Shown here one piece after another: positions 10,801-42,300 of a DNA stretch of 64,000 nucleotides; the first letter of the stretch is position 1; each line of letters opens with the position of its first letter. The stretch covers positions 1 through 64,000 of the forward strand of contig NW_026516272.1 in assembly GCF_025602895.1 (NCBI RefSeq), given 5' to 3'. The notes below the pieces were generated by a model, which was given only the letters and a program-made list of their open reading frames with translations, was not told where the DNA came from and ran no database searches. The position numbers were made by a program, and so were the translations under genes. This DNA is from Polychytrium aggregatum (lineage: Eukaryota > Chytridiomycota > Chytridiomycetes > Polychytriales).

Positions 10801-13350
10801 GAATCATGGATTTCCAAGCACTGCCCCGATTGGGAACAGCAATACTTGCCTTGGAATTGTCACAAGCGCCAGCGTGGTGCTCGATGGCAGATACAATGGA
10901 CTCGAGTAGGTCACGATAGAGCATGCGTTCTGGGCATCGCATCGATAAGAATCAGTCAAATCACAACGCAGGGCCGCGTATTCAAAATCTTTGGTCGCTT
11001 CTCTTCGGCACTTACTTTTCTGAAGCACCATGGTATCAGCCTCGTCGAGGCTCTGCAGGACCTCCACAACCACGACTGAAGCGTCGTAGGAGCTTTCGCC
11101 TCCGCTCTGAATCTCCTTCTTCATGACGGTGAGCCACTCGGACGACTCGGGCGTTGCGAGCCCTGAGGTCCTCAGCAGCATCTGCGAGAACGCCTCGGTG
11201 ATGGAAAAGTTCTTGCACAGCCGACGGAGAATCGGAAGACACTTTGGGAAGACGCTGACGGCGGTTCCGGCGATCCGCAACACAAACTGTGCCCGATCAA
11301 CCAAGCAGAGCGATATCGGTGATCATGATGCGACGAAAGAGACAAGCAGTCGTCACTCCTGCACCGCTGAACGCATACACCAGACAAAGGCGTGCCTCTA
11401 AAATCATACCTCAAAATCGTTGAGCGTAAAGTGGTCATACCGCTGAGCGAGTATCCAGAGGTTTTCAAACGCCGAATCGCGAACTATTCCGTCTGGATCG
11501 GCACTTGCAATCGACAGCAGTAACTCGATCTGGTGGGCGACAGGCAAGGCGGAATGTAAACCAACAGATCCAACAAGAACTCAAGACCGGACTCGGTTGC
11601 AGCTGTCGGCATCCGTCCGAGCAAGTAGTGCGCCGGTCGTACCTGGGCCGAGGTGTGAACTTGGGACCGGAGAGACAGAATCGTCATGGTCTTCAGGACG
11701 TTGGCGACAAAGACCGGCCGCTGGCGGGTCAGGATCAGCTTACGACACTCGTCCATCGCCTGGGTCCAAAGGGTATGAGTGTCAAACGCACATTTAGCGG
11801 TGTGCTCGGATCTCGCTACGAAAGCCGAGCTGTTGCTGTAAGGCTTACTCGTTCGGCGGTTTCGTAATCGTAGTGCATGTGACGGTACATTAGTATGAGC
11901 TTGGATGCCACCGACGGATGCTCTGTTCGTTCGAGTACGAGAAGGCATTCAGCGCATTGTCTGTTTGGTTGGTGCCCATGGGGCTGCTGTTCATCATGTG
12001 CGAGGCAACTGACGAGGACCAGCTGCTATCCGACCCCACTGAAACTCACTGTGGACGAGGCGAGAGATCCGGATGCAGATAGTCCGGGCGAACGCAGGCG
12101 AAAACGGGCAGAGCCGATCGGCTGCAAAGGCTGCGGCTTCGAATTCCTCTGGGACCTCGGAATTCAGTGCCTCCTGGATGCTGTGTGGTCAGATAGGTCA
12201 GCATCCACCGCAACCCCCATCGAGATCGAGACGGAGAAGTCTGAGTCCGGGCTTGAATATCGATCTGCCGTATCTCTGGACGCCGAAGAACACTCGACCG
12301 CACCTGTGACAGACTTCGATTTGGGTGTGAACTGCCGCGCACATGTGCCCGAGGAACCTGTGGATGGCTGCGTGAGTCGGATATCTGTTGCGGCGTGCGA
12401 GTTCTCAACTGTCCACGGCTCCCGTCTCTGTCCGAACCTGAGGGTCAGGGCCTTGGCTATCGGATCGTTGCTCGTGAGAACCACACAGATCCGCCGCGAG
12501 AATCGATCGATGCTCCTGATCTTGGAGTGCGACAAGGTGCATTTCTTGATGGTCTTGAGAATTTCCTGGCGGATAAAGTTGTTCCTGGAGTTCGACAGGG
12601 CCGGTCCAAAGACGTCAGATCACAAAGCCGGCAATGTTGTAGATCGATCAGAGCCTCGCTGCCATGGCTGTCCTTGCAGCCGACAGCGACTTTGACGAGG
12701 TGCTCGACACCAGCGAGGGCTCTGACGTGAAATGGGGTCGTTCTCCCAGCGACGACGTTGATTTGGCTCCGTGCGGATGAGTGGCGACAGTTACCCGATC
12801 TTCCACAGCTCGGCAAGCTTGAGATATCCTGAGTGATGCAGCGCAATCGAACAATCAAATCGACAGCGAAAGGGTGCAAATCGGAGGGTTGTGATTCAAT
12901 CAAAACGGAGGCAGGTGATAACGATGGAAGAGGATATCGGTGTCAGTTGTCTTGCGGATATTACGAATGTGCGGGCTTCCGAGAGCAAGCAGGGACGTGG
13001 TCAGTAGATCGATGGGTGGTTGTGTGGGCGGATCGAGGGATGGGTGAATGGGCGGATCGATGGATGGGGTAGGCCAGTTTGCAGCCACTCTGTCATCTGT
13101 TTGGCAGCCATGAAGCAACCTCAATGCCTCGCCCGATTGTGCATATTCAATGCATCTGGACCACCACAGTACCGAGATCGATGAGCACTGGAATCGGGAA
13201 CTGCGTGAAAAAGTCTGGAAAGTGGAGGATGGCTTCATGCTGCTCGTGGAGCTTGCCGGAACGACAGGCTTTATCAAGCGCCCCGAAGAACAGGTTGCCT
13301 CGCTCAAGGAGATCGTCGAGGTTGCCTGCGTTGGCGTCGCTGTTGATCAT
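7836..13350 (-). CDS. INTS7: Integrator complex subunit 7 (INTS7)
   Basis: INTS7 is a HEAT-repeat subunit of Integrator, the nuclear complex that cleaves snRNA 3' ends and attenuates Pol II. Exon 1 (13350-13173) starts MINSDANAG and contains LDKACRSGKLHEQHEAILHF, matching the human N-terminal block LDKGLRSGKLGEQCEAVVRF. It splices in phase to YLKLAELWKIG (about 12787-12830). The next exon (about 12435-12590) reads NNFIRQEILKTIKKC and SNDPIAKALTLR, matching human NNFLRLCVLK and SNDPVARAITLRMLG. EVPEEFEAAAFAADRL (about 12100) matches the EVEAAVFAAANF region. The C-terminal exon contains FPPVTMLEGD and DDDGIEWEVGPSIALP, matching the human beta-sandwich DANGIVWKTGP, and ends at 7836. The gene is cut into many short exons, not all resolved. 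Comparisons are from memory of the human protein. Confidence 0.85.
9241..9260. repeat. (CA)10 microsatellite
   Basis: Ten perfect CA units lie within the INTS7 gene span, probably in an intron because no INTS7-like reading frame crosses them. Confidence 0.9.
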
Positions 13351-13780: not shown

Positions 13781-16700
13781 TTAGAGGGTGTACTTGAGCC
13801 ACAAATCGCACGAGGCGATCGGTAGCAGCGACAATGGGGTATTGGAATAGTGGGTTAGTTCGCAGTTGGCGGGATCAGCCAGACGGCGTTGCAATGCGGC
13901 GGACCGGCAAGACAGACACTCACCCTGGTGCCATCGGGCTGTTCGATCGTCTTGATTCCCTTGGTGTCGATTTTCTGGATGGTGCCGTCTGGAGCAATGA
14001 TCTCTTGCTGCAGACCCCATGGCGGCCACACCGTCGGCGTGAAAGCACGGGTCAGGTCTAGTGACAAGCATATCCTGGCCCTATCCCGCTCTGCGATTGA
14101 TAGACGGATACAGCCACAGGCTTGCGCAGCTGCAGTAGTTGGCAGAGGCAGGATGCGCATCGCGGGCAGAGCCGAGAGCCATACCTCTCCGTTCGAGTAG
14201 ACGAACCGCACGGTGCCGTCGGGATAGTTGATTTCGCTGGCACCGTCTGGATGGTATCGCTCGGACTGGCCGTTGGGGAACTCAAAGAACTGGATGCCGT
14301 TCGGGAACGTTGTCTTTGTGACTTGGTTGGATGCAAAGTAGTAGACCTCGACTCCATCGGGGGTTTGCTGGAGCCACGGCAGCGTCAGTCCAGCCCAGTT
14401 CGGTCCAGCCCAGTTCGGTGCACTCAACCTCGGTGACCACAGCAAAGTCCCAGATACGCGATCGACACTTACTGTTTTGTGGTCGCCCTTCTCGAAACGG
14501 ACAATCGATGTGCCGTCGGGCCGGACTTCCTTCGTATATCCCTTGGTCCGGTACCACGTCAGCGAAATGCCGTTTGCGAAGATGCGGTCCTTCCGGTCCG
14601 TCGAGTCGATGGTCTAACAGGTGCGGCGCCGCGAGTCAGTCGGGCCATGGGCTGGGCTTTGATGCCTCCCTCGATGCTGGCTCGGCATCTCCGCACGCAA
14701 AACCCACAGCCTCGGCTCCTTACTGATACAGAGGACTCTGCCGTTGGCACCTGTCAACGCCGCTCTCAGCCGCACAGCTCCTGCAGTCCCACCTTGAATC
14801 CGACGTCGTTCAGGCCCACTTGGCTCTGGAGCTTGTCCAGGGCAGCATTCCCCTTATCGGTGACGCGGACCGGCGGCTCCGTCTTCGACAGCCTCGATCC
14901 TATCGGTGTCTTCTTGGCATCCGACGAAAGCGGCCGCGACCTTGCTGGCGGGGTCTTGGCCGGTGGGGTTTTGACGGGTGGGTTCTTTGGCGGAAGCTTA
15001 GTGTTGATTCGTGCTGGCGACGGTACCGTCGTGCTCGACGGACCGGTTCCCGTTCCCTTGGCTCTTGATGCTGCCGTGGACATGCCAGAATGTCTAACGA
15101 CCACCGGACGCGACTTGGAACCCGGAGCCACTGGCGATATCTAGTTCGGATCCAGAGCACTCATCAGTTTCTTGAATCAACATCTGCTTACAGCGCAGAT
15201 CTGCGTCGGGCAAGGGCTACGAGTCCAGGATTTCCTCAGTCCATACCGGGTTGGCCTCGGGTCGCTGGGCAAACACGGCGCGCTCCTGTTCCAACAACTT
15301 GACCTCCTCCTGAAGCTCCTCGTTTCTTATTCGAAGCTCGTCGATTCGGCGCTTCATGCGATCCTCGTTCTGAATTGCTCGCTGGTCACGTTGCTTGAGC
15401 ATCTCATTCAGCTCGGCGATCTGTTTCTTGAGGGCCTCAACTTCTTGCCGCTCCCTAGTTAAGTCGACGTTGATGCATGGTTAGGAGTACCGCGGCCATG
15501 GGGCAATCGATGAGATGATGGGCAGACTGGCGCAACTCGGCATCAGGGCGCTGGACTGCGGCGAGCTGGCTGCGGAACTGAGGAAGCACCAATCCGCGGC
15601 AGAATCGATAGTGAAAGTGCGGTCGAGAGATCCGAATGCGGCAACCAACGGACCCATTCGGAGTCAACGACTCTAACTACCTCTTTGTTGGTAAGATCTC
15701 GACGCTCTTTCGGTGCTTCTCCCACAGCGTCCGCTCACTCTTGATCTGGCGCAAACTTTCATCCTGCTGCTCCTTGATGCTTTGAAGTTCCCTAAGCCTG
15801 TAGTCCTCAAACTCACGCTTGAGGAGACACAAATGTGGTCAGGGCTCCTATCTCGGCCATCTCGTTGGAGAAGCAAATGCGAGACCAGCCTGTATATATA
15901 CCCTTTCTCGACTGAGACGCTCCAGACCTTCGCAGAGCTCGATTTGGAGGGGGCTGATGGGGGATTCGGCGGCTGGTGACAATGCCTCTGGCTGTCACGG
16001 TCGAGAGCATGGAGCGGATGTGTGAGATTGAGTGCGGTGCAGGCGAGCCATCGGATTTTGGTCATGATCACTCACCTGGTTGTGTGGTTGCGCGAGAAGC
16101 TCAGCAATCGGCGGCTCTTTGGGCAGGGAGTCCTCTGGCGAATCCGCACTGGGGGATGCCAGACCATTGCTGGGTTGGATTGTGGACACGACCGGCTCGG
16201 TCTGTAATGCCGGGAACAGCGATCGGATGAGCTTGGAGGGCGCCGGGGCTGTGAGTCGAATGGGCCCAAGCACTGTCGGAGGAATGATGGGATTTCGAAG
16301 CTGGTGCTCGGACTCGGCGGGAGGCTCGTCCCGGAAAGAAAAGTCTGGTACCGAGGGTCCATGTCCGATCGGGGGGGGGATGAATCAGTCCGTCTGATGC
16401 ACACTCCGGCCCGAGACCAGCATGGTGGCGTTGTCGAGTGCGGCTGGACCCACCTTCAATGTCGACTTCGGAAAGCAGGACCGAGTTTTGGATGGGCTGC
16501 ACGACAGAGACATCCGCGTCCTTCCAGTTCTCGTATTCACCGTCCTGGATAGGAGAGAGAAGGAATGGAACGAGGGAGTGGCGTGGAGTGGGGTGGGGTG
16601 AATGGGAGAGTGAAGCGCCAGACTGCTGTTTCGCACCGCTACGATCAGCCTCTAACTACACTCGATCGACTTGCATTGCAGACGGTAGGGTCACAACTAC

Positions 16701-25682: not shown

Positions 25683-28600
25683 ATGATGGCGTCGCTCGCT
25701 GCACATCCAGGTCATCCGCAACCGCCGGTCCAGGCCCACTGCTCGTTTTGTCGTGAGCACGCCCGCGACTCGCCCAGCGATCTCCTCGAGCTCTGCTGCA
25801 AGCTCTATTTCGCCAACCAGGGCATTATGAAGCAGATATCGGCCGGGGAGCTCGAGATCCAGCGGCTTAAAGAGAAGATTTCTTCGCTCCAAGCCTCTGC
25901 GCCGATCGCCCCTGCCTCTGCGCCGATGAAACGGCCCTCCCAGCCCCCTGATCGGGTCGTCCACAAGCGATCTCGCCACGCCTATACGCTGTCGCCGTCA
26001 TCCGAATGCTCGGCAGGTCCTTGGATCGACCCAATATCGAGCGTCTCTCCCTCACTGGATCGAGATCAGCCTCACCTCTTCCTCGAGTCTCTTCCTTCCG
26101 AGCACTTTGTCGACGCTGTCATCGGCTCATTCGACCCCGAGTCGCCGCCCTCTCGAGGTGCTCAAGCTGCGATCTCGGATACCCCCGATCCGCTAAGGGC
26201 CCCCGAAATGGCCCCCGAAATGGCCCCCGAAATGGCCCCCGAAATGGCCCCCGAAATGGCCCTGCATGATCGCCCCAACCCCGCCTCTCCCACGCACGTC
26301 CGATCCCGTCCAACCTCCATCAAGCTCATTCTTGGCCCCCGAACACTCAGAGCTCAGTGCACCGATCAGCCATATGCACCATGCCAATCTCTCATCAGCC
26401 AGTCAATACCCTCAGGCAGCACGACACTATCAGCGTCCCACCGCGCCAGCCCGAACAACTCAAGCACCGACGAGGTATTTAAGTGTGACGACCCACAGCC
26501 TCTCGCTCCGTCGGCCGCCTGTGGCAATGTCGGCGTTTGTGCTTCTTCTCCGAGTGAGGCTGGACGGCCGGGTGCCTCAAGATGGTCTATCGACAGTGAC
26601 CGTCGGCATGCGATACGAGCGAATGCATCCTCCCCGGGACCGTGGCCGCTGGATGGCCCCATCGACTCCCTGCCGAGCCCGCCTCCTCGCTGGGACCCTT
26701 GCCGCCCCCCTGCCGTAAGTAGTCTCCCTCAAGAACGCCGTGTTGCTGAGTATTCCGGCCTCGATCACCCCCACGGCTCCTCATCACTCCCGACTTGTCC
26801 AACAGTCGATCGCAAGTCAAGCACATCGTCGCCAATTGTACGTCCAAGCCATCGAGATCCAGCGGCTGCAGCAGGCGATCGGCCACACTCCCATGATTCC
26901 ACAAGTCGTTCGTATGCGCCGTCGTCGTGGATGCCCTCCGATCTGCTGGGTGCCATCGATACGATTCTGAGCTGTCCGACCTTTGATGTCTCCAAGAGTA
27001 TGCCATCAGGACAATCTCCTGCGGCAGCTTTGGTTGTCGACTGGAGCCAAGCGCGCGAAAAGCATCTCCTGATAGCAGAGGCACCGGCGGCATGGAAGCG
27101 CAGAGTCGGTGAAATTGACAATGCCGTCGATAGCTACATATGCGGTAAGTGCAAGCCCCTCTAGATCGCGTCTGGAAGCGCAAGCTGCTCCTGTTTATTC
27201 GATGTGGGCACCCCAACAGCCTCAGCAGCGACCCTGATTTACACTGACATTGTCACCTTTAAATCTCGGTTTGTGCCCCTTCCCATGCAGTGCTTCGTCA
27301 AGCCCACCAATCGTTCGGCAGCGTCCACAAAGCTGCCAAAGTAATCCTGGGATCCTCACAACCCTCCAGCGGGCCTGTGCGGCCACATATTGTCGCGCAG
27401 GCCCTTCGTGGAATCGTCAAGGAGCTAGATACGCCCATATTCCTGCGCACACACACTCCGGTTGAAGCCACGAGGATTGCGTCGAATATCTATGGCGGGG
27501 CGCATCTCGGCGCGTTTGTGATCGATATCCCGACGGCGGTCCCTCTCTCGGAGCAGCTTGTCGCATTGCAAGTCTGGAGCACGCTGCTTCAGGATCCTTG
27601 GGTGAGTCGAGAGTCGCGCGGCGCCATACACCGAGCAAGTCAAGCACAGGGATTAGTGAATGCTGCATGGTCCTTGTGCTCGATGGATAATGGATGCATA
27701 TTCTATCGCGAGACGGACACAGAGGCGTCCCGGCGGCTGATACGCCAAAGTCGGCCCTCGGACCGTGAAACGTACATACCTTTAACAAACGTCTGTGCGC
27801 CACAGAGTCTGCCGGCTGTTTGCTTGACGCTATTGGACTTGCTCTCGACCATCCAATGGACCGACCAGGAAATCGGAGCCATGTGGTAAGCTGTCGCGTC
27901 CGCGCTTGTTCCGACATGCCCGCTTTAGCACCGCTCTAACGCCCCTTCCTTTCTGCGCTTGTGCTGCAACACAGCCGTCTGGCCCGGATATTCACGATGC
28001 TGTGTCGGTTCCAGAAGTGGCCCGAGAGTGCACTCGAGCTCATCTACAACCATCTCACCACCACAAAGGGGCGAGTGTCGCTGCTGCTTGTCGACAGCGT
28101 CACCAAGACATGGAAGTCGATCATTTCAGTCATTGGTAAGTCATCGGTCTCGGTGGATGCACCTGGGCACTGCGGCGTTGTTATTGATAATATTTATCCG
28201 TTTCCTCCCCGCTACCAGTCAAGGATCCCGTTGCAGCATCGACTCTAAAGCACATGGTCCTCAAGGGACAATTTGACCGATCGGTAAGCATCAATAACTC
28301 CCACAGTCAACATCTGTGCACTGACATGGGATATTCGCCCACTTACGAAGCATATCGTCCCCATTCTGCGCAGATCTGTCCGTGGATTCATGCACTCAGC
28401 CCAGCTCCACTCGAGGCCTTGATTAGCAGCTATGTGCAGCGTCTTTGTCGGGGCAGTGTTCGAGGTAGGTTGTGGAAGGCGATAGCTCCGTCGTATGCAC
28501 TTTTATTCTACGGCTGTACTTCTTTCGATCAGGAGGTGCGCAAGGTGTGTGCTTGCTGATTCCTCTGTAGCTCGGCTGACCCATGAATTCTTTTGGCTTG

Positions 28601-29512
28601 TGGTTTATAGAATGGCAAACGATCGGCCCGCCAAGATACGTCATCCGCGCATTGGCGTTGGCTGTTGCCCATCTCCCCTGGAATGTTTTGTAAGTGGGCC
28701 TGCGCACACAGCTCTATCGTACATCGACGTTGGCCGAATGAAGCCATGCAGACCGCTGGACAGCACTCACTCACTCACTCACTCACTCACTCACTCACTC
28801 ACTCACTCACTCACTCACTCACTCACTCACCCAGGCATCTCCATGTCGCTGCATTATACCACCGGCTTCAATCACTGGACGAAGACGAAGCCATCATATT
28901 CTTTGCACATCTCGTAGCCCAGTTCTTTGCCACGCCCAAGAAGGTCACGCCAGCATCGCTGCAGCGTGTTTCACAGAAGGAGCTGGGCCAGTTTCTGTGG
29001 GACCAGTTCGGGAAACTCTTCCACGAATCACGCGAGATTGAGTGTAAGTATATCTGTGGACTGCCGTGAGCCCGTCGTGCTTGCTGCCAAACATCGCAGA
29101 TGGCGCTGGAGAGGCTTTTCTGATGGAATGGTATGGCTGCCGGCGGAGTCAGCAATGTGATTTGCGGTTGACTGGCCTGGAAATGCGGGGCGTTGTCGTT
29201 CCAACCCACTCGGCGGGTGAATCATTCTGGGCCGACTCGCTCATCCCTATCTCACCTGCTCCGCCTCTATTTCGTCGTCATTTCCTTGCAGATGGATACC
29301 GACTCGCCCTTCTTGATGCGATTTCGCAGATGAGCGGGTACTCTCTCGATTGCTCGATCGTCCGGTGGTTCGGATCCTTGACGACCGAACAAGCGATGGC
29401 TGCCTCGCGACGGACAGTCGATATGATGACGCGGCACCAAACCCGCATGCCCTCAGTCCAACGGATGGACAAGGCTAACAACACCACGATCCGCACAGCA
29501 TCAACCTTGTAA
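25683..29512 (+). CDS. Candidate Little Elongation Complex subunit 1 (ICE1-like) protein
   Basis: Nine exons join in phase to 956 residues: 25683-27144, 27291-27601, 27806-27885, 27975-28135, 28219-28283, 28374-28464, 28611-28689, 28835-29043 and 29100-29512. The N-terminus has a Cys-x-x-Cys-like pair (HCSFCREH), then a coiled segment (ELEIQRLKEKISSL). A long disordered Ser/Pro region follows with five PEMA repeats, then a helical C-terminal half. That half contains IVAQALRGIVKELDTP, MCRLARIFTMLCR, LLLVDSVTKTWKSI and YRLALLDAISQMSGYS. In the same order human ICE1 has AIANALKKIAEFSFDLLP, LCRVYVGICR, LTLFIANMWHDIF and IQLAAVYALCDLS (recalled from memory). ICE1 scaffolds ELL-containing complexes on snRNA genes. 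The gene model is firm, the identity is inference, and a fungal-specific helical protein is the alternative. Confidence 0.5.
26199..26258 (+). repeat. In-frame 12-base repeat x5 (Pro-Glu-Met-Ala)
   Basis: Five perfect GCCCCCGAAATG units inside exon 1 of the ICE1-like gene. The 12-base unit preserves the frame and encodes PEMA repeats in a disordered region. Confidence 0.95.
28764..28831 (+). repeat. (ACTC)n microsatellite in an intron
   Basis: About 17 tetranucleotide units fill the 3' half of intron 7 of the ICE1-like gene and stop three bases before its CCAG acceptor. Confidence 0.95.
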
Positions 29513-30039
29513 TCATGTATTTATTACCCGCAATAGAACATATTCTGGCACAACAGAGCGGCTCCTGCTCATCGAGAGGAAGCGGTTCGGCTTCGATGTC
29601 GTGGGCAATTGACACATCAATGAATGGTGGTTCGCTAAATCCATCTGCGGAACGGGGAATCCAACTCGAGGCGAGGGGCTCCAGCTCCGCTCGGCAGTGC
29701 AGGATGTCTCCCACCCCCTTCTTCCTCCATGCGCATTGGTTTCAATAGTCCGGATGTAGAGATTCATAGAGAAATCGCTGATGTATTCATATTTGTCGAG
29801 CGGCAGGAGCCATAGAATTGGACAAAAGCATAGCATTATCGAACGCGTTTTAGCGGCGATGGGAGGGGCAAGTTTCTACATAGATATAGACGGACTGTAG
29901 GGCGACAGGGGGAACCTTAAGGCCTCGAAGGGCCTGTGAGTGAGTCGGAGGGCGGAGTGCAGAGGAGGAATCGAGTCTCACCCTCCCATGCAGCCCCTGC
30001 TCAACCTTTGGGCTCTAGGAATATAGATGGAGAGCGCAT
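29513..30039. other. Convergent intergenic region, no gene recognised
   Basis: These 527 bases lie between two convergent stop codons. They are more AT-rich than the flanks, as expected for 3' UTRs. Nothing else was recognised. Confidence 0.5.
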
Positions 30040-32793
30040 TTAAGGAGCAGCGGCGGTGATGGCGATCTTGGAGACAGTGACACCGGTGTACTCAGTTCCG
30101 GGGTCCGAAACAAACTCGAGGATGATCTCGGCAACCGAGTCGTCAATGGCCCAGGTCTGGCTGACGGGGCGGGGCTGGTGGTCGGAGATGGCATCGGCCT
30201 TGAGCAGCTGGGCGACCTGGCCGCTCTTGTTCTTGGCATAGACGTAGAAAAAGTCATAGGTGGCCTCGGTATCGACGGTGGCATTGATCGAGAGCTGGTA
30301 CTTGCCGGCGGGGAGCTGGGTGAAGATGGTGAAGGAGGTGTCGACGTTGTCGGCATAGAGACCGGTCTTGGGATCGACGGCGATCTTGAGGGCGCCGTCC
30401 TTGAGGATCCAGCCCTGGCTAGCAGGGGAGGTGGGGTTGTAGATGCCGGCAAAGCTGGGGATCTGCTGGAAGTCGTAGTTGAAGGGAACAGAGGAGAGCT
30501 TGGCCGAGGGGACGATGCGGAAGAGGCGGTTGGTCTTGAGGACAGCGTCGCCGCGAGAGTTGGTGCCGGAAATGGTGCCAGTGAAGGTGCTGAGGGCGGT
30601 GGGAATCTGGTAGGTGGAGTTGAGGGTGAAGTTGGACTTGCTGGTGGAGGCGCCGGCGTTGAGAGAGCCGACGACAGTGCCGTTGACGGTCAGCTGGAGG
30701 TTCTGGAGACCCTGCTGGACACCCGAGATGGACAGGGTGGAGCCGACAGTGACATCACGGGTGAAGGGCTCGGCAATGAAGTAGAGGCTGCTCTGGCCAG
30801 TCTGATGGCCAAGGTCCTTCAGGGTGGAGGCGATAAAGTCAAACTGGCTGAGGGCCTTCTTGCCCGAGAACAGATCGTCCCAGGTGGGGCGGAGGGTGTA
30901 CTCGGAGAAGACACCGTCGTCCTCGATGAGGGCGCCGTTGTTGACACCGTTGCGGACGGTCTGTCTCCATCCGACACGCATATCGGCCTTGCCGAGACCG
31001 CCGTTCTGAGCATTGAAGGTGGTGTAAGGCAGAGGGCTGAAGATGCGGGTGCCGTTGAAGGCATCGTGGTTCACGGTGCCAAAGTACTGAACCAGGTACG
31101 AGGCGTGCTCGACGACGTTGGCACCGCCGCCACCAGTCTGGCCGTCCTGGCCAAAGATGTAGGCAGTTTGGCTGTCCTGCATGTTGGCGGAGAACATATC
31201 ACACGACGAGAAGCACACGGCGTCGTTGAAGATGGCAACGGGCTTCAGGTAAACGTTGCCGAGCTGGTTGACGCTGTTGAAGTCGCCAAAGTGGCCCAGG
31301 TCGCCGTACTCGGCCTTGCTGTTGAGACCAGCATCGTAGGCAGTGATCCACTGGGGGCCAGCGACGAGGGGAGCAACGGGGCTGTGGAAAATGGCGGTGT
31401 TGGTGTCGGAGATCAGAGCACGGGCGCCGTTCTGGATAAAGTCGGGCTTGAAGAGCTGGGGAATGGAGTTGGCCATGGTGATGTCACCACCACCGTTGGA
31501 GCGGATGTCAAAGACGACGGCATCGGTATCAGCGAGCTCGTTGACGAGGAGACCGCGGATCAGAGCGACGATGTTGGTAACCGAGGTGCTGGGCTCAAAG
31601 TCAGCCAGGAAGATGACACCGAGGTTGGCACCGTTCTCCTTGTAGATGGTCCAGGAGAGTTTGGTATCGGGAGTGCTCTGGTAAACGGGAGCGACGTTGC
31701 CGGCGGGGAAGACCTCCTTGAACTCGGCCAGGATGGGGTTGGAAAAGTCGGTGTTGGGCTGCATATGGGGAATCTTGGGAGTGACGACCTCAGCCTCGCC
31801 CAAGAAGTCGTTGACGGTGGCCTGGGGGTTCAGGATGGGGGCCAGGCAAGCCAGGGACAGGCGCGAAAAGTACGGGACCTTGATGGTGATGAGCTGGCCC
31901 GAGGGCTTCTTGAAGACAAAGGTGCGGTTGTCCTCCTCCTCGGTGGGCAGCGGGTAGAAGACCGAGGCACGGTAGACCAGGATGTTGGCAAAGTTGCGCA
32001 TGCCGCCCATGTCGTTGGCGCCCTGGGTCTTGTCCTGGTACTGCTCGAAGAAGGTGGGGCCGAACTCGACGCTGTCGATGGAGACGAGCTCGTCGCCGGG
32101 GGTGATCTGCTTGATCTGGTTCATCAGGTCGGCACCAAAGAACGAAGTGGGGTCAACGGCCGGGCCGTACGAAGCCAGGCCAGAGACCACCACGACGGGG
32201 TTCCAGTAGTCGTCGTTCTGGAGAAAGTCGAAGGACCAGGGCAGGATGGAGCGGACACAGCCGTAGGGGGCAGGGATGTAGTAGTTGGTGTGCTGGTCGC
32301 GGGCGGCCAGGAAGAGGGCAGCAAGATCCTCGTGGAACTTGACATCGCTGGTGTAGGACTTGTAGTTCTTGGTGATCTGGTCCTTGACGGGGATGGCGTC
32401 AAAGCCGTACTGCCAGAGCAGGGGGTGTCGTCAGTATTAGTCCAGCCATCGATCCTGGCACGCAGAGCTGTGGGAGCCAAAGGAGGCAGCGTGGGAAGGG
32501 GAAGACGAGGAACCTACGTGTTGGATCTTGGAGTCGCGGTTGGCCCAGATGTCAAAGAGCTTGTCGACCTCAGCAGCAACCTGGCCACGACCAGTCTCTC
32601 CGAGAGGCAGGACCGAGGTCAGGACGGTGTTGCGGATGTTCTTGAGGGGACCGACAATGTAGTTGCCCTGGATGGCGACCTTCTTGGCGCTGATCAGGCT
32701 GTTGAGGCCCTGGGTGAAGTTGAGGGAGTCCTGGGCCAGGACAGCAGGCGCGCCGAGCAGAGCAGCGGCAGCCAGAACCGACTTGAAGAGCAT
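30040..32793 (-). CDS. Secreted S41-family (tail-specific type) serine peptidase
   Basis: Two exons (32518-32793 and 30040-32409) give 881 residues. MLFKSVLAAAALLGAPAVLA is a clear signal peptide. The S41 core shows LGVIFLADFEP, then DAVVFDIRSNGGGD, the family strand that shapes the oxyanion region, then AVCFSSCDMFSANMQD, which places the nucleophile Ser, followed by GQDGQTGGGG. The region before the core (about 40-330) resembles the extended N-terminal domain of fungal S41 proteins, and the C-terminal 280 residues are beta-rich and Thr/Ser-rich, probably an accessory or adhesion domain. Many NxS/T sequons fit secretion. Such proteases are expanded in chytrids (established knowledge). Codon use is extremely biased, suggesting high expression, and this also keeps antisense frames open. 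Confidence 0.85.
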
Positions 32794-34609
32794 CTTGGCC
32801 GTGGAGGAAGAGGGGTGGTGGTGATGAGGATGGTGCGGTGCGGCAGGACGGCGGGGAGCGGGGCGAGATTTATAGCGGTTGCAAGCCGTTGCGAGTGCAG
32901 AACCGTCCACGGCCTTGCTGCCGTGCCCATGGCATCCATGTCCCACAGAAGGCCATTTCAGCTTGTGTCAGCGAGCCAAGGACAAAGCCGACAAGTGCGC
33001 GTGACTGTGTGCCTTGCTCGGGCGAACAAGAGGTGCGACGGGCTGGGAGGCACCCGCTGGACGACAGAGAGGTCGGCTCCCCAAGAGGAATCCCCTTGTG
33101 GAGATGGCAAAGAGTGGGCCTGTGCCGGATGGGCTGGCGCGCAAGCCCACGGCAGCACAATGCAGTTCATGCTCGCCGGGTGTGTGGTTCAAGAGCAGCC
33201 ATGTGCTGTTTGTCGTTGCAGTCGTTGCAGTCGTTGCAGTCGTTGCAGTCGTTGCAGTCGTTGCAGTCGTTGCAGTCGTTGCTGTCGTTGCTGTCGTTGC
33301 TGTCGTTGCTGTCGTTGCTGTCGTTGCTCGCTGGGAGCAGTGTGGCCGGGGGAAAAGTGCATCGGCTGCAGCCGCCCATGAACACGGAGTGCGATGCAGA
33401 TCAGCGACCATTGTCGGCTTCAACCCACGGCCGACCGGGAAGACGCAAGTGTTTGTTGGCGCGGTTGCGTCTGTCTTGCCACGGCGGACACCCTGTGCTT
33501 GCCGACCGTGCATGCGTGTATATACAGAGCCACTGTGTACTGCTGTATGGCTTGCTGACCATTGCTGTACAGTCGCTGCTGTGCTGCAAGCTGTATTTCC
33601 GCGCAATTTTGCCTCAGCGAGTCGCGGCAGCGCCATCACATGGACCGCCCCACGCCCACCCAGCGCCGCCTGGTGCCACCGCCGTCCCACCATCGCCCTT
33701 CGCAGCCGCGATTCCCGCGTCGGTGGGCTGGTTGGCCGGTCTGGCAGGTGACCTGCGCTGCCCCAGCCCCCTCCACCCTCAAAGCGCCTCTGCCAAGGCT
33801 CCGAGCCATGGTCCGGCGTGGGACTCTCGTGGGCCCACATTCGCTTGCATTCGCTCTCTGCGCAAGCGTTCTCGAGACGTGTCTGGCGAGATGGGCCTTG
33901 TCTCGATCTGCCGCAGCCCACCAGCCCAGTGGTGTGTCAGGGCTGTCGCTATCCAACACACAAGGACTCTTCTGGTCTGTCGCCTCCGCGCCCTCTGGCC
34001 ATGGTGGTTCCATGCCGATGTCTCCCCACCACAGAGAAGGAGAGACTGTGCTCGATTTCGCCTAATTCGCTCAAGCAAATCGTGGTGGATCAACAGCGAT
34101 CCTTCGGGCGGCCCATTCGCAGCAGTCTCGAATCGGCTGCCTGGTTGGCAACGTCAGATGACCGCTCCCCATGACCCACCGGCTTTCGGAGACTCGCCAA
34201 TCCATGTTGGTGCAACTTGCGCAATCGAGAAGCGGAATCTGGCCTATCGACAATGTGCTTCCGATTTCAAATCCTGGCCGTCGCTGCGCCGGGCCCGAAA
34301 TATCTGACCTCCGGGCGAGTCGAGACGGGTTGGGTCTGGATCCGTGGTGCCGAGAACAGGGCCTCCCAGAAAGCTGCTATGATCTCGGCATGATCTCGGC
34401 ATGATTTCTCCTGCCTCAGGCTTCCATCGCACTGTCCACGTGATCGTGCGCAGCCGCCATGCATTGCCACACCACTGCACCGCCACGACACCCCTGGTCG
34501 CACGTGCGATCATGTGTCTTGCGCCAGGGACCGCCCTGTCGCCGCGCACATCACCGCCCTGGCCATCGCCCGTCCTGTGGTCTGCTCTCTGCTTCGACAT
34601 CCAGACACC
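32794..34609. promoter_or_regulatory. Divergent promoter region of the S41 peptidase and PRE9
   Basis: The longest intergenic stretch in the window (1.8 kb). It holds a 13-copy 9-base minisatellite at 33212-33328. Frames open on both strands (for example 32838-34307) are driven by this repeat and by base composition. No RNA gene or conserved domain was recognised. Confidence 0.5.
33212..33328. repeat. GTCGTTGCA/GTCGTTGCT 9-base tandem repeat x13
   Basis: Thirteen uninterrupted units. The first seven or eight end in A and the rest in T, so two variant blocks expanded separately. Confidence 0.95.
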
Positions 34610-36393: not shown

Positions 36394-39300
36394 ATGTTCC
36401 CAAATCCTTCGCCGAGGTCTGGATCGTCGTCGGGGCCCACGTCAAACCACCGCCGCTCCCGATCCGCTCGGCCCGTTGCAGGACCGGGAAGACTCATCGC
36501 TTTTGCATCCAACCCAATTCCTCGCCACAGGAAACCAAGTCGCCGCGTCAGCTTCGCGCCGACAGTCCACATCAAGCCGTTCAGGTCTGTCTTTGGATCC
36601 ACTCTCCCTCCCCCCAACTTGAACACGTTCCACATCCGATTGCTGCTGCTGTTGCCTGGATCATGTTTGCTTTGGCCATTCGGACCGTGCTCATCCTACC
36701 CTGGTCTTGCAGACGGGAAACCCCAATCAAGAACCCTGCGAGCTTCAACGACTTTGATGGATCAAGCCTTGAGATCCCGAATCTGTCCTCGATCCCTCCG
36801 AGCTCGTATGTCTCGTTCATTGTCGTGCTGTCACTTTGCCAAAGCAGGCGGCTGCGTGGTCAGCAAAGGCGGCTGCATGACCAGCAGAGTTATGGCGGGC
36901 AAGCCGGCTCACGGTTCGTTTTGCCTGCGATAACTGCAGAGAAACATACATGAACGATCTCAGCTATTCGCTACATCGCGATGACTACACCGAAGAGTAC
37001 GTTGCACCTGCCGGATGAGATGCAGTCTCGAGCCAGCCGGAGAGTCCGTCGCATCGGTCTCTTCGACCCGCAGCAGCGCTTGTCCTGCACTGCGCTGCAT
37101 CAGAGGATCAGCCGCACAGGCAACGAGCGATACCGAGATACGAGTGCCAAAGCTGTCCGTTGCTAACCCCGCTATCATCCCACGGGGCTCTCCTCCTCCT
37201 GCCCATTCATCCCGAATGCAACAGCGAGTCGAGCTTCGACATGAACACAAAGGGCTCGCCCGTCAGCTCCCCCTCCGACCGCCACACCCCACAGGCACAA
37301 AGATCTGATCTTGGAGCTTCTGACGAGAGTCTGGACGACGAGGAAGATCGGGAGCTGAGACAGTCGTCATATGCCGAGAATCAGCCCGACGGCTCTGCAA
37401 TCCTCCCTCTGGGAATCGCAACTGAGCCACCGGTCCAAGCAGAGAGCTCATATGACGTCTCGATGGAAATTGAGGACGAATCCAGCTTCAGTCGTGCCCC
37501 GGTCCGTACCCTCGCTCGCGACTCGCCGCTGCCGAAGCGCCAGGCACTGCAGCAGATTGCCTCGCCCCGCATCTCCAACAAGCACAGACTCGAAAACGAG
37601 GACAATTCGTTCCCATCCCCTGCCCTCAAAAAGCCACGGACGGCTTCGAAGGGCACCCCGCACCGCTTGACCGCGTCCATTGTCTCGCGGCACTCGACAC
37701 CGGAGAGCACCAAAAGCGATAGCGATGACACGGTGCAGATATTCACATCAAGGATCAGCTCGACCCCCAAAAGCCAAGCCCGTCCAGAGCCTCCCCGCTC
37801 AAACAGTGGTGTCACGGCACAATCGTCTCCGTCCGTCAAGCGCCTCCAAGACCTTGTACCCATTCAATTTGATGCCCAAAGCCCCTTGGTTCTGCCTGTC
37901 AAGATCTCCAAGGGTGCATTTGACTGGCGTAAGGACACGCCTCTCAAAATCGGCGCCAACTCCCCCATGGGCACGCCGAATCCCAAGGGGGGCTCGTCTC
38001 GCATGCTTTCTAGCCCCAGTCCGTTTGTGTCTCGGAAGCCTCGAGCCTCGCTGTCGCTTCTTGGCGGCGCCGACTCGCCCGTGCCTCGCAAGAAGCTTGG
38101 TCCGAGGGACAGCATTGCACCGCTCTTCGGACTTCAAGCTGCCAATGGAGCCAAGGGCTCCCACCAATCTCGCCAGAGCATCGACCCCATGTTCAGGATC
38201 CAAGGCCGTGAGTCTCTGGAGCCCAGCGTCGTTCAGAACAGCCGCAAGCTGAGAGCGCGCGACAGCATCGCGCCACTGTTCGCCTCGGCACATCAGTTTG
38301 AAGGTGAAGATAGTGATGAGGATCCGGACGATGACGTCGATGAGGTCGACGCCCTTCGAGCAGGGTCGTCACAGTCGCTGTCCGCCGATAATCGCCATAC
38401 ACAGGCCCGAGAGTTGCAGGCTGTAGCGGAATCATCGCCAACTGTCCCCGCCCAGCGCAAATCCGCCCTTCGCAAACGCGACAGCATCTGGCCGCTCTTC
38501 AATGCCGAAGCGCAGAGTCCGGCCTCCCGAGGTCTCCAATCCAGGGCCAGCGAAGCTGATGGCCGCAAAAATAGCCGCGTCAGCTTGGCGCCCATGTTCA
38601 AGCACGCCTCTGCCCATGGCTCTGACCCACTGTCACTCGAGAGCTCGGACGAAGAGGCCGCAGCCACTGCATCTTTGTCTTCGACTCGCAAGCCAGCCTC
38701 GGGACGCCCCAGCTTGCCAGCGATCTTCTTCGAAAGCAAGGTGTCTGATGAGGCCTTTGCAGATGATAGCTTCGATGACGATCGTGATCTCGCCGACCAT
38801 GAGCAGCAGAGCAACACCTGGGACAACGGAGATAGCATCGGCATTCTGTTCCCTAAACAAGCGGCCCAGCCTCGTCTGAGCCTTGCTGCAGCCGCGACAG
38901 CATCGCCTGTGGCTCCAGCGCCGACTCTCTCCAAGGGCCGAGCAAATGGCGATGACGAGGCGTATGAGTTTGATGAAGATCCCTCGATGGATTTGGTGGA
39001 CGAGGACGAGGCAGCCTCTCGAAGCGGCTCACCTCGACCCCTCCAATCTGCACAGGCGGCTCAGTCCCGCTCCAAACTCTCAAACGAGCTCACTGTTGGC
39101 GATGCCGCTGACAACGACTCCGTTGCAGAGCCAACCGAGACAGATGAGCAAGATATCGCGCAAGTCCAAGATACGCACACGACAGCGGGAGACCAAGGTA
39201 CCACCATATTTACCAAAGCACACATGCTTCCTCAGAGCGCCTGTCGTCTATACGCTGACATGGTTTGGCTGTCTCTTCTCTCGTCAGTAGCCCGGACTCG

Positions 39301-42300
39301 TGACACGGCGTTCGAGACTCTTTTCTCCCTCGATTCGGCTGCAAAGACACCCAACAAAACACCATCAAAGGCTCCCATGACCCACCCAACAGCCTTGCTC
39401 TCCAGCCGAAAGTTCCGCAAGAGCCTTGGCATCCCAAGCCCCACGCAGTCGCCCGCCATTGCACAAAAGATTGGTCAGTACCAGCTACCCTGGCTTCACC
39501 AGTTCGTGGTATCACGACTGCAGTCTTCCCGCAAATGCAAGCACACGATCAATGCACTTGGCTGCATCTGCGCCAACTGACAGCGCCCTTGTTCTTGACT
39601 GGCTTGGCCCTCACAGCCCTTCTGCAACAGCAAGCCCAAGCATCGGCGTCCAAGCTGGCCTCTTGGACCCAAATCTCGTCGTTCACGCCGACGGGTCTGA
39701 AAGAGTTCAATCCCCAGTCACACTCGGACGAGCCCGCTTCGTCGCCCACTCCAAAGAAACCCTCTCTGGCTGCTTCCTCACCCGTGGTTCAAAGCGATCT
39801 TCCCGAAGCCAAGTCCCATTCCAGCTCGTCTGTCGCCACACCCAAATCAACGCTGATACAGCAGCGGTTGGTCAGCACCGAAAAAGATAATCCTTTCGTC
39901 GATACATCATTTGCGTCGCCCATATCCAGCAGCACCGGTCCAAATGCCCTGATCGACTTTTGCGAAAGACTCCAAAGCGCAAATGATGGTACGGATGCCA
40001 CCGAGAGTCGCAACAGCTCAGCGACCAGATGTGTCGCAGCAGAATTTTCCTCGCTGTTTTCGAGTACTGACCCTGAGCAATCATCCAGACGACTACGACT
40101 TGATGAACGAGCAGATCCCAGAGTCGGCCGACCTCGACGACGACCCCCATTTTGCGTCGGGCATGGATGACGAGGGTGTAAGTCCTAGTCCAGCGGCGTG
40201 TTTGCTTTCTGCCCGGACATCCGCTCCCACGGCCTCGACTAACTCGATTCGATGTTTGTGGATCAGAACATTGGCTTTGACCAGCTCCTGAAAGCCGCAC
40301 AGGTTACGTTTTCGGACGAGACTGGGGCGAACTTGAGGTTCCAACGTGGGTCGTCACGATACCAGATCGCTCGGAGTGAGTACCAAATGCTTTACACGAT
40401 GTACTCAAGCACAGCCCATGCATCAGTACGTTGTGCAGCCGCCGATGTGGAAGCCCTTGCTAACCTACACCACAACACCTATCTCAGCCAAGCAACCAAC
40501 ATCGCACGATTACGCGCGTGGCTACTGCGTCACGCTGCCACTTATGGAGGCATTTTCGCGCAAGTGCAATGAGGTGGTCGATGAGATCCAAATGCGGGGC
40601 CAGGATATTGAAGAGCTGAAACAAATCATTGAAGAGACACGACCCATCGTCGTTGATGAGTACAGTCTTGGAGATCCAAGCGAGCAAGAAACGATCGCGG
40701 TGAGAAAACGCTTGTTGTTGCTGTTGTTGTTGCCCTATTCTCGTGCTCACGACTTTTGACTGACTCTGGTTCCCTTCGCCATCGGCTGCCTCGACAACAT
40801 AGTCGGGTCTGAGATCACTCAGGGCCTGGTGCAGCTTGGAGGCCGAGCGAGATTGGATTCGTTCGCAATGCCAGCTCTTTTCGGATCTTCTCTCGGCTGA
40901 CCATCTCGAGGCCCTGGAGATGGTATGTCTGGGCGTTGTCAACGGCAGTACGAATCGTGGTTGTATCATGGCTGTATCGTGGCAGTGTCTCCGCAAGTCA
41001 CCGATCTGTTGAATGGTCCAACGGACTGATCTGTTTGCTATTTGGGCTTGGTGCGACGGTGTTTCCATCTGCATGGTGTCTCCTGCTGCAGGACAACCAA
41101 ACTCTTGGCGATGTTTCCATCAGGGCCTCGAGCAACCTGCTTGACTTGCAGGAGTCTGTGGATGAGCTCCGGCGCAAGGTTGAAACCGAGAAACAACGAA
41201 AGAAGCTGACGCAGGAGACCAACTTGGCTCAACAGCTTCAGCTGGAGGAGCGAGTAGCCAACAACAGGTGCCGTATGTGTGCCCGCGCCGGGAGAGAGAG
41301 GCACGAGTCTCCGTCCGTGATGCCAAGCAACCGCATCCAACCGCATCCAACCGCATCCAACCGCATCCAATGGCACTCGGTCACAGCGGCTAATGCAAAG
41401 CCGCGGCCCGTATTGTGCTTCTCCATCCTGCAGAGCCGAAATCGAGCGGCTCAAGGCCGAGCAGGCTGAGCTCCTTGCCGCAATTGAACATGGTCGTCAG
41501 CAGAGACAGTTCCTGCAGGAAGCCAAGGAGGACAACGAAAAGGCACGTTCGCTGTCTTTGATGATCTTCTGAGCATCCAAGCACGCAACACCTGAATCTC
41601 AGCTTCGGTCGCGATGAATCAGCCAGTAGCCGGCACCCCATATGGCGATTTCTATTTACTGCTTCGGGTGTCCCACTTATGCCCCCATTCTCTTTGCTCC
41701 TCGGACTCCAGAGCATCACCGAGGCTTCGGCTGCCATCGAGGTCATGCAGTCTGCCACACTGGCCGATGACGAGTACATCGCCGCCAGAGGTACATGCCG
41801 CCGCCTTCGCTACTCCATACATGCACTGACCCGCTTTGATGTAGCTGCGGATTCCTGGCACTAATGCACATCGGCCTATGCCTTCTTGGTGAACAGAGGA
41901 CTTTAGATTCTACCTCCAAAGCCATATGTGGGCCCCGATTCAGATCGATGGATGCGTAAAGCTGCTCTACGACGGCGGTGTCGCCGTTCGGATCGACACA
42001 AACGCGGACAGCATCAAGCCACGCCTTGAGCTCTGCTTTGATCACGAACAGGCAAGCTCCGTTGGATGTGTACATTGTCGTGGCCACTTTTGTTTTGGAG
42101 TATGTGCGTAGCTAACATTCCTGCCCCACGCTGTGCCCGTGGATATTAGGTTGTCCAGCAGGAGTATTTCAAGATCCCGCAGGGGAACATCGTCGAGGTC
42201 TTCAGTAAAATTGGCACCAAGCGGGTATGTATCGCCAGTAGCCCGGAACCTAGCAGCGAGCCAACATCCCAATCTGCGCTCTCGCATAGATGTAGCCGCT

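Follow-up and report, generated by a model that had tools for sequence, protein, structure and literature searches.

The window, as we call the whole 64,000-nucleotide stretch of DNA analysed here, carries at 25683-29512 on its forward strand a spliced gene that is real and goes beyond chance open frames. Judging from its sequence, we favour, with some reserve, a functional gene found at one locus in two haplotypes of what is probably a zoosporic fungus, with a nuclear-looking scaffold protein as its product. The leading specific identity for this protein is a very diverged ICE1 (KIAA0947, subunit 1 of the Little Elongation Complex, LEC), which the alignment and chimera results described below lead us to hold at about one in three. 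In that role it would be a docking scaffold for ELL at snRNA genes, working together with Integrator.

The initial annotation had proposed nine exons spliced in phase, and retranslation reproduced exactly 956 aa across eight GT..AG introns (Table 1). The gene is more than chance because its own frame scores above the others (-0.10 bits/codon versus -0.45 in both other frames, a gap of 0.35) and because base changes between the haplotypes spare its exons. The locus is present on two contigs, C387 (the window) and C386, with 99.3% identity across 10 kb. Relative to the second haplotype (L010), none of the 2871 exon bases of the nine-exon model is changed, against four of its 959 intron bases (at 27620, 27709, 28309 and 28506), and the chance of all four being intronic is about 0.004 by length (our arithmetic, from 959/3830 bases). 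Exon 1 is an open frame closed by a donor, GTAAGTG, at 27145, and it is backed by the codon score and by zero base changes between the haplotypes; an indel of 24 nt in this exon is in frame and falls within a MAPE tetrapeptide repeat (26198-26221), of which the other haplotype has two units fewer. The other haplotype likewise lacks 28 nt of an intronic CTCA repeat (28764-28791). A non-functional locus, either a decayed gene or chance open frames, would be consistent with the slightly negative in-frame codon log-odds against base composition, but the eight in-phase introns, the advantage of the right frame and the confinement of the base changes to introns argue against it and leave it very improbable. 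Two changes to the model were also considered: an intron at 26715-26805 was rejected, the frame being broken, and 27602-27805 is disfavoured as coding sequence, with two of the four base changes inside it and a codon score of -0.70. Beyond the gene, a 1120-aa open frame at 30019-33381 (+) is antisense to an ORF at 30040-32430 (-) and is probably a shadow frame; the latter ORF has, by eye, the look of an S41-type peptidase.

Table 1. Features of the candidate gene and of its INTS7 neighbour in the window.
Feature	Position	Strand	Remarks
Exon 1	25683..27144	+	N-terminus, CxxC, coiled-coil-like stretch, NLS-like stretch, long low-complexity region
C20-S-F-C23 motif	25740..25751	+	direct reading of translation
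Bipartite NLS-like KR-x10-KRSR, residues 83-98	25929..25976	+	direct reading of translation; inference
Exon 2	27291..27601	+	C-terminal domain begins here
Intron, 204 nt, in-frame, stop-free, GTGAGT..CACAG	27602..27805	+	haplotype changes and codon score
Exon 3	27806..27885	+	splice model
Exon 4	27975..28135	+	blocks 1 and 2 of the initial annotation, CRLARIFTMLCR and LLLVDSVTKTWKSI
Exon 5	28219..28283	+	splice model
Exon 6	28374..28464	+	splice model
Exon 7	28611..28689	+	carries RYVIRALALAVAHLPW; used in chimera tests
Exon 8	28835..29043	+	splice model
Exon 9 (initial model)	29100..29512	+	alternative: 29100-29291 intron, exon 9 at 29292-29512; block 3 of the initial annotation
INTS7 exons (neighbouring gene)	12048..13281	-	PF24436 matches of 49.8, 35.1 and 30.6 bits; 56.9 bits for joined pieces

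The end of the gene can be read in more than one way. Two acceptors, one ending at 29099 and the other at 29291, preserve the frame, each being followed by ATGG. The stretch 29100-29291, which is 192 nt long, in phase, stop-free and identical between the haplotypes, may therefore be an intron, giving a protein of 892 aa. Its first 38 codons (29102-29216) score -0.42 bits/codon, resembling the wrong frames of the gene, and its last 25 (29217-29291) score -0.16 bits/codon, resembling the rest of the exon; a protein of 931 aa, with an intron at 29217-29291, is a third possibility, which was compared by local alignment only. We came upon the 892-aa model by way of the codon score and took it up once its improved spacing had been seen; a selection factor of perhaps three therefore applies to its alignment figures.

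The predicted protein opens with a short segment holding a Cys-x-x-Cys and a coiled-coil-like stretch. After a bipartite NLS-like stretch come about 400 residues of low complexity, followed by the C-terminal domain; CxxC and NLS-like patterns of this kind arise by chance. The residues P, S, G and T together account for 41% of positions 91-440 versus 25% of positions 501-930. Within the latter range the helical hydrophobic moment is reached by 4 of 200 shuffles and that at the strand angle by 172 of 200; the C-terminal domain, of about 390-460 residues, is probably helical, though this assignment is weakly supported. Neither the 956-aa protein nor its last 542 residues nor a 202-residue core had a Pfam match at E<=10, and the N-terminal 80 residues gave two matches, both below cut-off with E about 0.1. 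In the 892-aa model, the C-terminal domain recovered only DUF1400 (E 0.047, below cut-off). No chain among the PDB sequences matched the 956-aa protein at E<=10, and no homologue outside its own genome was confirmed among bacterial, archaeal and viral collections, a result that accordingly carries little weight. We infer a role as a nuclear scaffold: the protein would most likely act through protein-protein contacts, with the helical domain docking partners, an N-terminus that may dimerise or bind zinc, and a linker that would tether the two.

Human ICE1 likewise has an N-terminal Cys-x-x-Cys and coiled coil, and the fungal protein resembles it in this part of its layout, as well as in its long low-complexity middle and probably helix-rich extreme C-terminus. 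Of the ICE1-like N-terminus put forward in the initial annotation, the C20-S-F-C23 motif is indeed present, whereas the alignment to an unvalidated human N-terminal sequence falls off the CxxC and is reached by 54 of 500 shuffles, which leaves this argument for ICE1 weak. The fungal protein is unlike ICE1 in its length, 892-956 aa against 2266 in human (PMC6351623), and in having no match to the ICE1_C profile PF25817 at E<=10, whether in the 956-aa protein, its pieces or the C-terminal domain of the 892-aa model. A PF25817 profile search of the genome also gave no match, as it did in the control genomes. The positive control was the human ICE1 C-terminal sequence used in all comparisons here, which matches PF25817 with 331.6 bits; the profile recognises its residues 75-265, making that part genuine ICE1, while the 74 residues before it are unvalidated. 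Searches from this human stretch returned nothing in the fungal genome and no match among solved PDB chains, and hhalign of the single sequences assigned the fungal domain and ICE1 a probability of 0.4%. According to PMC5896957, the ICE1 C-terminus takes a MIF4G form in a Phyre2 model and suffices for association with eIF4A3; the helix-rich C-terminal domain of the fungal protein is like such MIF4G-type helical repeats but has no MIF4G Pfam match.

The three sequence blocks quoted in the initial annotation are all present in the translation. Their supposed order and spacing as in human ICE1 is not significant for the 956-aa model, where end-to-end alignment with the whole human stretch is matched by 52-80 of 500 shuffles over six scoring schemes; it merits attention only once the last exon is shortened. 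For the 892-aa model the corresponding counts are 0, 1, 2, 2, 6 and 64 of 500, one scheme giving no signal; the BLOSUM62 count of 0/500 became 1/1000 in a repeat, and two schemes gave 1 and 2 of 1000. The domain of this model attains z 3.66 against 3.25 for the best control piece, with none of 49 pieces from the window as good; ORF translations containing exon 1 of the gene were excluded from this control set. This suggestive end-to-end alignment, which beats nearly all shuffles in five of six schemes, speaks for ICE1. Retaining 27602-27805 together with the short last exon aligns about equally (1, 2, 2, 7, 1 and 103 of 500 shuffles as good), and shuffling in 12-residue blocks is less favourable to the 892-aa model (7, 9, 19, 29, 34 and 255 of 500).

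The end-to-end signal is fragile, because it rests partly on the 74 unvalidated human residues and because the Pfam-validated part alone (human residues 71-265) is not significant, with 56 and 75 of 1000 shuffles as good, and aligns in a different register, which tells against ICE1. The first 74 residues on their own gave 45 and 89 of 1000 end to end, and in local alignment the first 75, nearly all of them unvalidated, were reached by 5, 0, 0, 4, 5 and 5 of 300 shuffles in the six schemes. Locally, the 892-aa domain is reached by 3-47 of 500 shuffles against the whole human stretch and by 63-265 of 500 against its Pfam part. The best local match, on blocks 1 and 2 of the initial annotation, pairs AMCRLAR..KTWKSIIS with ALCRLCR..TTWPNVLS and is equalled by 40 of 500 shuffles.

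An alternative, which we regard as an even bet, is that the protein is particular to its lineage and that its generic helical (HEAT/MIF4G-like) domain shares no ancestry with ICE1, the similarity being one of helix composition. The reversed domain, with the same composition and helix period, beats the real one in two of six local-alignment schemes and comes near it in others; the local score of 43 obtained by the domain is reached by 4 of 62 ORF translations from the window; and the lack of any Pfam match above cut-off points the same way. End to end, however, the real 892-aa domain reaches z 2.9-3.9 in five of six schemes and the reversed control 0.6-2.0; under the sixth (PAM250) the reversed control is the higher of the two (1.9 versus 1.2).

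The ICE1 identity was further probed with chimeras, in which the human piece recognised by PF25817 was joined to pieces from the window so as to reveal weak similarity hidden by the HMMER filters. The real blocks were picked by eye or taken from the initial annotation, and the nulls, comprising shuffles and the reversed domain (plus one from INTS7 in the RYVIRAL and YRLALLD sets), were placed by automatic best match. Support for ICE1 came from the block DQFGKL..YRLALLDAISQMS, whose start is placed better than any other in the domain (score 20; 10-16 for six nulls): DQFGKL..YRLALLD of the 892-aa model raised the score in register from 215.5 to 225.2 bits (+9.7), and none of six selection-matched nulls scored as high (218.6-223.3). 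Against this, the profile match of the 892-aa tail chimera still ends at position 72 of 193. The other two of the three chosen blocks fared less well. The RYVIRAL block raised the score from 63.3 to 71.9 bits (three shuffles, 61.4-63.0), but it is beaten by one of ten selection-matched nulls (72.8) and is only the third-best-placed start. The YRLALLD block, block 3 of the initial annotation, took it from 244.0 to 250.8 bits (three shuffles, 244.3-247.3), but in the initial model nine of ten selection-matched nulls do as well and it lies outside the five best-placed starts, which makes it a weak argument for ICE1. Also unfavourable are the segment before RYVIRAL, which lowered the score from 253.4 to 252.5 bits, below all five shuffles (252.6-253.7), and the whole-domain chimera at 329.1 bits, against 328.6-328.9 for three shuffles and 332.8 for the human piece alone, although the latter test is insensitive.

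The INTS7 gene that had been noted nearby was confirmed by its PF24436 matches, 12.4 kb away, and its detection exon by exon indicates that such a profile search does find intron-rich genes in this genome. Adjoining it, at 13924-14250 (-), are Tcp10_C repeats of a CPAP/SAS-4 type centriole protein (45.9 bits together). As for ELL and ICE2, LEC partners named in the initial annotation, ELL is probably encoded in the genome: a candidate near 611673 on contig C90 matches PF10390 with 19.7 bits (E 6.5e-4, below the curated cut-off of 22.9) and has an N-terminal exon that is ELL-like by eye. ICE2 went undetected, the only match of a genome profile search with NARG2_C (PF10505) being eIF3d on contig C113, which was therefore rejected as ICE2; no control genome matched either, and absence is unprovable by such a search. 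EAF (PF09816) likewise gave no match in the genome at E<=1, nor in any control genome. The failure of these profile searches to find ICE2 and EAF weighs against ICE1, and the former sets the fungal genome apart from the known ICE1 setting; the INTS7 gene in the window and the probable ELL weigh for it. In support of the same identity, PMC7044329 describes binding of ICE2 and ELL by the C-terminal half of human ICE1, occupancy of snRNA genes by human ICE1, and copurification of the LEC with Integrator including INTS7.

The match of eIF3d is an observation in its own right: its C-terminus (L012:1501-1653, the same as G000 C113:695593-695745) matches PF10505 around profile positions 97-157 with 21.7 bits (E 1.6e-4), and an unverified stretch of human eIF3d does so with 17 bits (E 0.004), both below the cut-off of 30.8. 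The match, seen in two species, raises the possibility that ICE2 and eIF3d are distantly related.

In the human exon junction complex CASC3/Btz is a partner of ICE1. The genome examined here has a Btz (CASC3/MLN51)-like exon (24.1 bits versus a cut-off of 22) at L019:1507-2442 (-), with a second copy, L020, in an ORF whose sequence includes ..NDPSATPHSGTFWLHDNRFHGR... This ORF contrasts with the report, in PMC6351623, that MLN51 was not found in the fungi surveyed. In the assembly, of 64.7 Mb in 418 contigs, chitin synthase is matched 47 times at E<=1e-10, which together with the Tcp10_C/CPAP-type centriole gene would fit a fungus with flagellated zoospores. Elsewhere in the window, a large low-complexity ORF at 37019-39580 (+) with repeated RDSIAPLF/RDSIWPLF motifs has, by eye, the look of a KNL1/Spc105 kinetochore scaffold; Pfam recovered nothing above cut-off for part of this ORF or for a joined piece from 40-41 kb. 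Scanning the whole window for Rfam families and tRNAs gave no match.

Our search of the open-access literature found nothing on fungal ICE1/KIAA0947, including ICE1 together with Integrator in early-diverging fungi; prior publication elsewhere is possible. A survey (PMC6351623) recovered no ICE1 from Saccharomycotina or Basidiomycota and suggested its early loss in fungi, a suggestion that a true ICE1 here would contradict. If the protein is not ICE1, the gene adds another scaffold protein particular to its lineage. Should the ICE1 identity be correct, which we put forward tentatively, a zoosporic fungus would have kept a true orthologue alongside ELL, INTS7 (and so at least one subunit of Integrator) and a CASC3/Btz-like gene. 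The LEC scaffold, and with it the link of ICE1 to the exon junction complex, would then be older than the animal-fungus split and would have been lost in other fungi, possibly functioning without ICE2 here, and this fungus would offer a small system for studying how elongation factors came together with Integrator on snRNA genes.
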